Shown here: positions 29,682 through 33,226 of the stretch, in pieces
Layout of the letters: each line of letters starts with the position of its first letter
Position numbering within the stretch: the stretch's first letter is position 1
From: Gammaproteobacteria bacterium
Lineage (GTDB): Bacteria > Pseudomonadota > Gammaproteobacteria > GCA-001735895
Length of the DNA: 64,000 nt
Assembly (NCBI GenBank): GCA_030066085.1
Contig: JASJCI010000032.1
Span: forward strand, 62,001 to 126,000
Direction: 5' to 3'
Notes under the pieces: model-generated
What the model was told of the DNA's origin: nothing
Database searches by the model: none
The model's input: the letters and a program-made list of their open reading frames with translations, nothing else
Position numbers and translations under genes: made by a program

Positions 29682-32330
29682 GTGAGCTTCGATTACAAAG
29701 AGATAAGGGCGCGCCAGCAGGCCAGCGGAACCCAGTGGGCTTCGTACAGCGACCTGTTCATGGTGCTGGCGTTCATTTTCCTGCTGATGTACATGGTATC
29801 GAGCCTGCGTACCGGCATGATCTCGGTGACGTCGCACGCCAGGATCCAGGAAGCCAGGCAGGAACTGGAAATCTACGAAACCATCAAGGACCAGTACCTG
29901 ACCCAGCAGAGCTCCGCGCAGGAAAAACGGATGTACGAGGAAATCATCGAGCAGATAGCGCTGCTCGAAGACGAGGCCTCGGCCAGGAAGCGCCGGCTGC
30001 AGCAGCAGGTCGAAGCCCAGGGGGAGCGCGAATCATCGCTGAACCGTTACCAGCAGATGATCGTTGCGATGATGAACGCCAATACCGCGGCCCGTGCCGA
30101 GGCCGCAGAAACGCTCCAGCAGCAGCAGCGCGAAAACCTCGAACTGGAGCAGGAGATTGCCGAGCGCGGCGCGGCCGTCGAGACCTTGCAGTCGCGCCTG
30201 CAACAGGAAGAAAACGAACTCGAGCAGATGCGCGAGCGTCACGCCGAGGAAGTGCGCCAGCAGGCGCAGCAAATCACCGCCCTGGAAGCCGTCTACACGC
30301 AAAGCAGCCAGGTCGTGGCGCAACTCGAGCGCGACATGGAAGCCGCCCAGCGTGAACGCGAGGCGCTGCGACGGGGACATGCGCAGGAAAAGCTGGCGCT
30401 GGCGGATCGCTACCAGGAATTACGTTCGCAGCACGAAGCCGGGCAGAGCCGGGTTGCCAGCCTCGAGGAAACCCTGCAGTCAGAGGCCGAACAGCGCGAG
30501 GCGCTGGAACAGCAGCATGCGCGGGAAACGCGTGCAATCGAGCAGCGCTACCAGTCGCTGTCGGACGCCTACGATCGCAGTCTCGGTGACATGGCCTCAC
30601 TCGAGGGCCAGATCGAGCAGGAGAGCCGCGAGCGTGAACAACTCGAGCAGACGCATGCCGATCAGACCCGCGAGCTGCAGCAGCAGCTGCAGCAGCTGGC
30701 CGGCGAATACGGCAAGAACCAGACAAAACTCGCGAGCCTGGAGCAGCAACTGGAGCAGCGCGCCAGCGAAAAACAGGCGCTGGAAGCCACCCTGATCGCG
30801 CAGACGGAATACCTCGAGGGACAGATCTCCGACCTGTCGTCGCAGTACCGGCAGAGCCAGGATCAACTGGGCGAGCTCGAATCCACGCTGGCGCGCGAAG
30901 CAGCGGAAAAACAGGCCCTGCAGGCGACCCTGGTTCGACAAAGCGCAAATCTCGAGGGCAAGATTACCGAGCTGACGCAGCGCCAGGGACAAAGCCAGGC
31001 GGAACTGCGGGAGCTTGCCGGGCAACTCAGTCGCGAAACGGCCGAAAAGGAAGCGCTGCAAAGCGCCAACGCGGCCCAGCTCGCCGAACTCGAGCAACGC
31101 TACCGGACACTGCAGGGTGACTACGACCGCAAGCTCGGCGAGCTCGAATCGCTGGAGGACAGGAGTCGTGCCGAGCTGGCCACACTCGGCGAACAACTGG
31201 GCAAGCAGGCTGCCGAGAAGGAAGCCCTGCGTAATGCCAGCAGCGCCGAACTCGAAGCGCTGGAAAACAAGTATCGCGGGCTGCAGCAGGAATACGATGC
31301 CAAGCTCGGCGAACTCGAGGATCTGGCGGCGCAGCGCCAGGGCCAGCTGGAGGGGCTTGCGGGCGAGCTGGCGCGTGAAGCGGCGGAAAAAGCGGCGCTG
31401 CAGGACGCCAGCGCGGCCAGGCTCGGTGAGCTGGAGGGCAAGTACCAGGACCTCGAGAGCGACTACCAGCAAAAACTGGATGAGCTGGCAGATCTCGCCG
31501 GTGATATCGACCGCAGCCGCGAGCAGATGGCCGGGCTCGAGGAGAACTACCAGGGGCAACTCAGTGATCTCGAGGATCGCTACCAAGGCCTGAAACAGGA
31601 GTATGCCGGCAACCAGGACCGGATCGCCCAGCTCGAGCAGGACCTCGCCGGCGCCCGGCAAAACCTCGAGGATACCGCCGAGGAACTGGGTCGGACCGAG
31701 GCTGACCTGGCCGCCACTTCGGGTGAACTGCAAAAGGCGCTGGAACTCGCCAGGAACCGCCAGGAGGTCGCCGAACGGCTCGCCCAGGGGTTCGCCGAGG
31801 CCGGCATCGATGCCGAGGTGGATCCGGGTACCGGCGACGTGGTCATCGATTTTGGCAAGGAATACTTCGATACCGACAGCGCGCGGCTCAAGCCGGGCAT
31901 GAAACGCACTATTCGCGAAGCGATGCCGGTATACGCCGAAAGCCTGTTCGGTAACTCGACCATGACCGCCGACATCTCGGCGGTCGAGATCATCGGCTTC
32001 GCTTCGCCGACTTTCGGCGGCAAGCCCGTCAACCCGCGCTCGTTATCGGACACCAACCGCCGCGCGGTCAATTACAACCTGGATCTCAGCTACGAGCGCG
32101 CGCGATCGATCTTCAAGTACGCCTTCAACCCGCGCACGGTCGAGTTTCGCCACCAGGAAACCATGCTGCCGTTGATCAAGGTCACCGGTCGCAGTTTTTT
32201 CACCGAGGAAGTCAATCCGGAGGACACCGGCAACCTGTCACGCGAGGATTTCTGCCGGCTCTACGATTGCTTCGGATCGCAACGGGTCATCATCAAGTTC
32301 GACCTGGAGCAAGAGGAGGTTAGCTCGTGA
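29682..32330 (+). CDS. MotB/OmpA-like giant coiled-coil membrane protein
   Basis: 882 residues. Cytoplasmic N-terminus, then one membrane segment (about 22-42, SYSDLFMVLAFIFLLMYMVS) with Asp24 at its start, the position of the ion-binding Asp in MotB-type stators. A continuous, Gln/Glu-rich, Cys-free coiled coil follows (about 52-705), including ten tandem 46-residue units (176-657). The C-terminal domain (about 708-875) resembles OmpA/MotB peptidoglycan-binding domains: DVVIDFGKEYFDTDSARLKP, VEIIGFASPTFGGKP, LSDTNRRAVNYNLDLSYERA. Probably energised by the MotA-like protein encoded 4 bp overlapping downstream. Start is GTG 29682. Function not known; the arrangement suggests a force-transmitting envelope machine. 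Confidence 0.85.
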   Translation: MSFDYKEIRARQQASGTQWASYSDLFMVLAFIFLLMYMVSSLRTGMISVTSHARIQEARQELEIYETIKDQYLTQQSSAQEKRMYEEIIEQIALLEDEASARKRRLQQQVEAQGERESSLNRYQQMIVAMMNANTAARAEAAETLQQQQRENLELEQEIAERGAAVETLQSRLQQEENELEQMRERHAEEVRQQAQQITALEAVYTQSSQVVAQLERDMEAAQREREALRRGHAQEKLALADRYQELRSQHEAGQSRVASLEETLQSEAEQREALEQQHARETRAIEQRYQSLSDAYDRSLGDMASLEGQIEQESREREQLEQTHADQTRELQQQLQQLAGEYGKNQTKLASLEQQLEQRASEKQALEATLIAQTEYLEGQISDLSSQYRQSQDQLGELESTLAREAAEKQALQATLVRQSANLEGKITELTQRQGQSQAELRELAGQLSRETAEKEALQSANAAQLAELEQRYRTLQGDYDRKLGELESLEDRSRAELATLGEQLGKQAAEKEALRNASSAELEALENKYRGLQQEYDAKLGELEDLAAQRQGQLEGLAGELAREAAEKAALQDASAARLGELEGKYQDLESDYQQKLDELADLAGDIDRSREQMAGLEENYQGQLSDLEDRYQGLKQEYAGNQDRIAQLEQDLAGARQNLEDTAEELGRTEADLAATSGELQKALELARNRQEVAERLAQGFAEAGIDAEVDPGTGDVVIDFGKEYFDTDSARLKPGMKRTIREAMPVYAESLFGNSTMTADISAVEIIGFASPTFGGKPVNPRSLSDTNRRAVNYNLDLSYERARSIFKYAFNPRTVEFRHQETMLPLIKVTGRSFFTEEVNPEDTGNLSREDFCRLYDCFGSQRVIIKFDLEQEEVSS
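30207..31652 (+). repeat. Ten tandem 138-bp (46-residue) coding repeats, two extended to 171 bp
   Basis: Unit starts by protein residue: 176, 222, 268, 314, 360, 406, 452, 509, 566, 612. Eight units are 46 residues; the seventh and eighth are 57, exactly one 11-residue hendecad longer. Each shows an E-x-AL (or similar) near position 5-8, often H-A-x-E four residues later, an E-x-R/K-Y pair near 21-23 and a LASLE-like block near 40. The DNA is diverged, so this is protein-level repetition. Confidence 0.8.
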
Positions 32331-33226
32331 ATGCCGCTATCGTGGACCTGATCAACGTCGTCGTCGTGTATGCGACCGACTACCTGATGCCGCTGCTGTT
32401 GTGCGGTTTCATACTCGCCGTCATCCTGCGCCTGCTGATTACCGTTACGATTCATCGGCAAAAGCGATTCGTCAAGGAGTTCACCAAGCGGGTGCACCAG
32501 GAGATCCTGTCCAGTCCCGAGCCCAGGGGCTCCTTCTACCTGCATATCAAGCGCATGCTGACCCGGACCTACTTCGAGACCTTCGAATTGCGTGCCCGTC
32601 ACAAGCGGCGCAACGATGATCGCATCATGACCGTCGGCGATCGAATGTTCCTGATCCAGGATGGTGTCATCCGCCTGATCGACGATTTCCTGCAACAGGT
32701 GCGTTACCTCGATCGCAACGGCGGTCGCCAGCCGGATTTCCAGGGTATTTCCAACAGCGTGTTCGGCTCCAACCCGGTCTTCAACCGCGTGCTCGGTATT
32801 TTCTCGCTGAGCCGCACCAATGACGTACTCAATATCCTGCCGAGCATCTTCATCGTGGCCGGTATCTTCGGCACTTTTCTCGGCATCATGCGGGCGCTGC
32901 CGGAACTGACCGCGATGGACATCACCGATGCCGAGGCCAGCAAGCTCGTAATCGACAGTTTCCTGATCAAGATTTCATTCGCGCTGTCGACCTCGATTCT
33001 CGGCATCGTGCTGTCGATCCTGATGAGTTTCATGAACACGCTGCTTTCGCCCACCAGTACCTACGTCGAGATCGTGGATACGCTCAATTCGGCCGCGGAA
33101 ATCCTGTGGAACAAGTCGGAATCCAACGATGTCGCTGGCGCAAGCGACCGGCAGAACGAGCACGAAGCCGAGGCCGAGCAGGTATTCGATCTCGCCATTG
33201 CCAATCTCTATGCCAGGCGGGCGTGA
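32327..33226 (+). CDS. MotA/TolQ/ExbB-like proton-channel protein
   Basis: 299 residues. TM1 about 17-40; a cytoplasmic domain about 41-165; TM2 about 168-190 (NILPSIFIVAGIFGTFLGIM, the GxFGTxxGI signature of the family); TM3 about 208-240; a short acidic tail. The start overlaps the coiled-coil gene stop in GTGA. The pair corresponds to an ion-driven MotAB/TolQR-type 5:2 motor, but with gene order B-A and a very long B subunit. No flagellar, Tol, Ton or Zorya genes adjoin. Confidence 0.88.
   Translation: MNAAIVDLINVVVVYATDYLMPLLLCGFILAVILRLLITVTIHRQKRFVKEFTKRVHQEILSSPEPRGSFYLHIKRMLTRTYFETFELRARHKRRNDDRIMTVGDRMFLIQDGVIRLIDDFLQQVRYLDRNGGRQPDFQGISNSVFGSNPVFNRVLGIFSLSRTNDVLNILPSIFIVAGIFGTFLGIMRALPELTAMDITDAEASKLVIDSFLIKISFALSTSILGIVLSILMSFMNTLLSPTSTYVEIVDTLNSAAEILWNKSESNDVAGASDRQNEHEAEAEQVFDLAIANLYARRA

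Follow-up and report, generated by a model that had tools for sequence, protein, structure and literature searches.

The window, a stretch of 64,000 nucleotides from a gammaproteobacterial genome, carries on its plus strand two overlapping genes, here termed B and A. B (29682..32330) begins with GTG and encodes an 882-residue protein, assigned as a ZorB/MotB-like subunit from its open reading frame, PADLOC and a fold search. Near the N-terminus is a predicted transmembrane helix, approximately residues 22–43 with limits set by eye (29745..29810), which contains the conserved Asp24 (codon 29751–29753). A rod of about 660 residues, roughly residues 45–707 (29814..31802), follows and has no proline. 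The protein ends in a ZorB/MotB/OmpA-like domain, residues 676–882 (31707..32327), with conserved Cys858 and Cys863. Ten tandem units occupy residues 176–657 of B (30207..31652 by exact codon mapping). A (32327..33226, plus strand) encodes a 299-residue MotA/TolQ/ExbB-type subunit, recognised from PF01618, ZorA and its sequence, and its first four bases, GTGA, are also the last four of B. The surrounding genes of the window are metabolic and transport genes, and none of the neighbours scanned is a flagellar gene.

A PADLOC search matched ZorB1 to residues 685–879 of B (5.7e-28). When the PDB was searched by sequence with a profile of the C-terminal domain, neither MotB nor ZorB was found, nor any other credible match, and a fold search was therefore used instead. 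The AlphaFold2 model of residues 676–882 (pLDDT 84) matched best to ZorB 8vvi (Z 16.0, 185 residues aligned, rmsd 3.6), then to ZorB 8vvn (Z 14.7, 179 aligned, rmsd 3.5) and 8qyd (Z 14.1, 170 aligned, rmsd 2.9), with MotS and MotB ranking next. The domain has an OmpA-like fold, matching ZorB, MotS, MotB, Pal and OmpA domains at Z 9–16; the best Foldseek E was 4.8e-7, and a fold match of this kind leaves membership of other families possible. MotB_plug on the N-terminus (E 0.0044) and OmpA both scored below the Pfam cut-off. The aspartate of the OmpA-type site is not evident, as GFASPT has none at the equivalent place when compared by eye. The positions YNL-L-S--R and the cysteine pair of the domain are invariant in 35 aligned sequences. 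B has one N-terminal transmembrane segment with an acidic residue; its YSDLF motif is conserved, and the aspartate is present in every homologue with a complete N-terminus that was compared. Pfam and NCBIfam also matched the rod to families such as SMC and taxilin; these hits were discounted as reflecting coiled coils in general.

A is of the MotA/TolQ/ExbB type, with PF01618 scoring 24.7 bits (cut-off 22.9). A profile of 35 A sequences searched against the PDB ranked ZorA first (6.4e-7), and its model gave ZorA, ExbB and TolQ in Foldseek at E 0.002–0.02, that is, above 0.001. In the model about 60 residues follow the last long helix, and the long cytoplasmic tail of ZorA is absent from the 299 residues of A. 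B and A are thus homologues of the two subunits of ZorAB- and MotAB-type ion motors. The original prediction had found the repeat in a coiled-coil protein, which stands; the ZorB/MotB-like identity of that protein and the partner gene had been missed.

Segmentation of B with a cyclic profile gave ten units in residues 176–657, the number first claimed, and this is the right count because the phase of the repeat is gone before approximately residue 166 and after approximately residue 660. Eight units have 46 residues. Units 7 (residues 452–508, 31035..31205) and 8 (residues 509–565, 31206..31376) are adjacent and have 57 residues each, owing to single +11 steps at residues 493 and 551, as had been proposed. 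Offset 46 is the top self-similarity offset of residues 176–657, with a mean BLOSUM62 score of 1.28 and 32.6% identity; over the wider span of residues 61–660 the identity at this offset is 28.7%. The signal was reached in none of 1000 composition shuffles, 1000 class-preserving shuffles and 1000 local-block shuffles. In the class-preserving shuffles, which retain the pattern of hydrophobic, alanine and polar positions, the peak still fell at offset 46 in 980 of 1000, so the hydrophobic, coiled-coil pattern itself has a period of 46. Residue identity contributes to the period beyond this pattern. Neighbouring units share 26–52% amino acid and 41–61% nucleotide identity, so the copies are old, and diverged as had been described for the DNA. 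Antisense to the repeat, on the minus strand (30597–31733), lies a leucine-rich open frame of 378 residues, probably a by-product of the codon make-up of the coil.

To read the register of the coil, a unit profile was built from 145 clean units of 18 close relatives, the window's protein included and four of them cut by contig ends, and of two more distant gammaproteobacterial proteins. Positions 8, 19, 23, 26, 37, 40 and 44 are near-invariantly hydrophobic, with weaker preference at 12, 16 and 30. Our reading of this profile agrees with the division of 46 into five heptads and one hendecad, the core running 8-12-16-19 (steps 4-4-3) and then in steps of three and four up to 54; three positions counted as core in this reading carry polar residues, mainly E and K at 1 and 5 and mainly S at 33. 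The units have 46/13 = 3.54 and 57/16 = 3.56 residues per turn, both less than the 3.63 at which a helix runs straight. According to work on bacterial hendecad rods (PMC9858780), next to no supercoil is specified by a hendecad. The regular switch of handedness along the rod that had been proposed is therefore not supported, and the coil is expected to be weakly left-handed with relaxed stretches.

All isolated phase breaks found in the relatives, +11, +14, +25, +28 or a skip of 14, keep the coiled-coil register. This fits the proposed selection for periodicity, acting on the register. Of the lengths from 1 to 45, 18 can be written as 7a+11b, so that each register-keeping step has a 40% likelihood by chance, and many of the breaks are common by descent; the set of isolated breaks fits selection on the register but does not test it with independent events. 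Clustered phase breaks occur at both ends of the repeat region, and the C-terminal halves are irregular in G024 and G025. The N-terminal parts of L075 and L076 likewise have irregular phase.

The order was sampled with 41 genomes of three genera, 31 of them from the genus of the window (its own genome included) and 10 from the other two. A was matched at E 1e-69 or better in 21 of the 31, with a broken A in one further genome, and in none of the 10. The C-terminal domain of B was matched at E 1e-36 or better in 20 of the 31. Twenty regions that were analysed held 13 full-length B genes (12, and that of L050), four cut by contig ends, one split and two paralogues. With the window's B, 14 full-length proteins were available, of 767 (six proteins), 814, 824, 838, 874, 882, 902, 973 and 973 residues. 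The best period is 46 in all 14. Their ends align nearly without gaps and the differences fall in the rod, which varies mostly by whole units and by steps of 11 or 14 residues. Close pairs of unequal length (874 and 814; 902 and 767) indicate that units have been gained and lost. A broken A in G013 and a B split into two frames in G006 (L047, L051) are perhaps sequencing errors or decay. The window's own genome also contains a second, distant B-A pair (L048, G000:C17, 5954–7687 and 7727–8779); its 577-residue B has an Ala/Gln-rich helix and no 46-residue period, and similar matches occur in 16 of the 41 genomes of the order.

Beyond the genus, a scan of named genomes with the C-terminal domain gave 39 loci. 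Eighteen come from MAGs close to the window that are recorded as gammaproteobacterial or as Proteobacteria without further placement, one is from a MAG labelled Moraxellaceae, one is Spongiibacteraceae, and 19 are of Bdellovibrionota type; L078, labelled only Proteobacteria, was placed with the last by the tree, and a single MAG supplied both L087 and L094. The gene immediately after B is A at 38 of the 39 loci; the remaining locus, L086, breaks off within B, and L064 has a broken A. In a tree of 35 A proteins (the window and 34 loci) the gammaproteobacterial proteins form one fully supported branch. The two outlying gammaproteobacterial B proteins have 685 and 675 residues and best periods of 46 and 92, whereas full-length B proteins of Bdellovibrionota type have 506–615 residues and a best period that is never 46. 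Judged from these sequences, the rod seems to have been long already before the 46-residue repeat expanded it in gammaproteobacteria.

The L084 genome carries the label Bdellovibrionia; of 290 genomes in its phylum, 145 have the B domain at E 1e-10 or better. A more distant set within this phylum includes open frames of up to 1098 residues; in its 13 regions A is always present, and the best period is a multiple of 7 in every one. One Bacteriovoracaceae MAG, the L096 genome (G410), has four B-type matches in frames of 621, 802, 853 and 216 residues. Across 369 genomes of the window's class, a match at E 1e-6 or better was obtained in five. One of the five contributes L133 (4694–7432), a B of 913 residues whose repeat is 52 residues long and gives 38% identity at that offset; no combination of heptads and hendecads adds up to 52. 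Two observations speak against a period of 46 being essential: the long rods of distant B proteins of 802–1098 residues have best periods that are multiples of 7, and that of L133 is 52. Long rods have thus arisen by more than one route.

At 16 of the 19 Bdellovibrionota-type loci a third gene, C, follows A. Its products (within L077–L096) make up an uncharacterised family with an FHA domain, a coil of variable length, a transmembrane segment and a conserved C-terminal domain. Pfam FHA was found in all four of the 16 that were scanned; beyond it, by eye, come a very long coil, the transmembrane segment and the conserved domain of about 110 residues. Of the remaining loci, L086 stops within B, C of L092 is apparently divided between two frames, and L091 has a C-like gene on the other strand with no FHA match. 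In clustering no gammaproteobacterial locus was grouped with C. The C-protein domain was found in none of 41 genomes of the window's order, in a search run without a positive control, and in none of the 13 regions of the distant long-rod set; an HMM from the same alignment does match in two Bdellovibrionota-type regions (L141, L142). FHA was matched eight times in the window's genome, in no case in an open frame longer than 368 residues.

The cysteine pair bears on the side of the membrane on which the rod lies. In 32 of 32 B proteins the only two cysteines are those of the C-terminal domain, and their invariance suggests a disulfide and a domain exported from the cytoplasm. The rod lacks proline in 28 of 32. 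At a helix rise of 0.1485 nm per residue it would measure 98.5 nm in the window's B as a continuous helix, and 68–112 nm across the gammaproteobacteria and 44–59 nm in the Bdellovibrionota type. The periplasm is about 20–25 nm wide. A rod several times longer cannot stand upright in it, and we infer a course parallel to the membrane or doubled back on itself.

Taken together, A and B most likely form an uncharacterised 5:2 ion motor, and by the sequence and the model the repeat looks like the stalk of the B subunit in a ZorAB-like machine. The fuller proposal, a relative of ZorAB/MotAB anchored through an over-long periplasmic tether, is in our judgement probable. In such an A5B2-type, ion-driven inner-membrane motor, encoded by the two genes, A would make the channel ring and enclose two B helices, whose Asp24 would carry the ion. 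On the periplasmic side B would extend as a parallel coiled coil, a rod about 100 nm long with a wall-binding domain at its end. The 46-residue repeat would have arisen by unit duplication in the gammaproteobacterial lineage and, with the register kept, would work as a length module. The rod would then place the wall anchor far from the channel, and could transmit or store torque and pulling force along the envelope. Against this model we count that a rod of 100 nm is odd in a narrow periplasm; another topology or a folded-back course is possible. We also count against it the sub-threshold Pfam scores for OmpA and MotB_plug, the lack of a MotB or ZorB match to the C-terminal profile among PDB sequences, the OmpA-type aspartate that is not evident, the Foldseek values of A above 0.001 and the polar residues at unit positions read as core. 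More speculative, and offered tentatively, is a periplasmic shaft of 45–110 nm that anchors the stator of an ion-driven rotary motor and serves as a torsional spring or wall winch, with register-keeping units of 46, 57 and 60 residues tuning its length and twist and the Bdellovibrionota coupling it to a cytoplasmic FHA-coil sensor; equally tentative is the part of this reading that makes the motor class widespread in Bdellovibrionota and present in few gammaproteobacteria.

Published ZorAB is a 5:2 complex that, by the account in PMC11890865, needs Asp24 of ZorB, binding to the wall and the ZorA tail. ZorAB (8vvn, 8vvi, 8qyd) is the best match of both subunits by profile or fold, B has its aspartate at residue 24 as in type I ZorB, and B ends in a domain of the wall-binding type. 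The long coil, however, lies here on B, between the transmembrane helix and the wall-binding domain, and not in an A tail; A has only 299 residues, the order is B-A and no effector gene is recognised. MotAB and PomAB likewise pair a MotA/ExbB-type A with a B that has one transmembrane segment, an aspartate and an OmpA-type C-terminal domain. The plug and linker of E. coli MotB are about 50 residues, as given in PMC12505986, in contrast to about 660 here, and B therefore departs from the short plug and linker of a flagellar stator. FilP and Scy (PMC9858780) are likewise bacterial rods in which heptads alternate with or adjoin hendecads and which grew longer in evolution; they are DivIVA-type cytoskeletal proteins, not motor subunits, and their repeat is a different one. 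In a search of titles and the starts of abstracts, with subscription journals mostly outside its scope, no account was found of a protein resembling MotB or ZorB that has a long coiled coil in the periplasm.

That ZorA and ZorB are the best matches of both subunits, and that PADLOC and NCBIfam matches apart from generic coiled-coil families are limited to Zorya parts, raises the possibility of a variant Zorya system, in which A and B sense damage to the envelope by phage and signal to effectors that are encoded elsewhere or go unrecognised. We consider this unlikely. PADLOC found no ZorC/ZorD or ZorE effector among the six neighbours tested, A is without the tail that Zorya needs as reported in PMC11890865, and the genes are in the order B-A. 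A plasmid search gave no match, and occurrence in half of the 290 genomes of the L084 phylum exceeds what we would expect of a patchy defence system. The chromosomal neighbours are conserved in the genus: A-B is flanked to one side by phosphonate-binding and histidine-phosphatase genes and to the other by CoA-transferase, AMP-binding and ABC genes, though some of the arrangement has changed. Given these shared neighbours and the lack of a defence gene among the six, we favour an envelope motor passed on by vertical descent rather than a defence locus of Zorya type. The gene context common within the genus led us to reject an origin from a phage or mobile element.

The third gene of the Bdellovibrionota-type loci, present after A at 16 of 19, recalls the Agl-Glt gliding machine of Myxococcus, an ion motor with an FHA membrane protein, GltG, described with FHA and TonB domains (PMC3169522). 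A gliding- or secretion-type motor of this kind would have the B rod or the FHA protein move envelope cargo, and the lineage of the window would have lost the FHA gene or use another partner. This is more doubtful than the Zorya variant: no Glt-type neighbour was recognised, and the C gene was found neither in the 41 genomes of the order (in that uncontrolled search) nor in the 13 distant long-rod regions. AglQ is short, at 162 residues by the same source, and C differs in its very long coil and its C-terminal domain. That the rod is a purely structural element, a CrvA-like periplasmic skeleton for which the motor part is an anchor or inactive and the repeat number only sets filament mechanics, is very improbable: the rod is the part most variable in length and far too long for a simple linker, but conservation of the transmembrane aspartate and of the A partner over large distances suggests that ion flow is needed.

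The envelope motor formed by A and B, if it is built as proposed, departs from its relatives, for in the motors of this superfamily known to us the wall anchor is close to the channel. A rod several times as long as the periplasm is wide raises the question of how a stator could hold torque through a long, flexible shaft. Close relatives whose rods differ by repeat units provide a natural series, ready-made for testing the effect of length and twist. Finally, the B domain in half of the sampled genomes of the Bdellovibrionota-type phylum suggests that predatory bacteria and their relatives possess a motor not yet described, as does the third FHA gene at most of those loci of this type that are closest to the window's.
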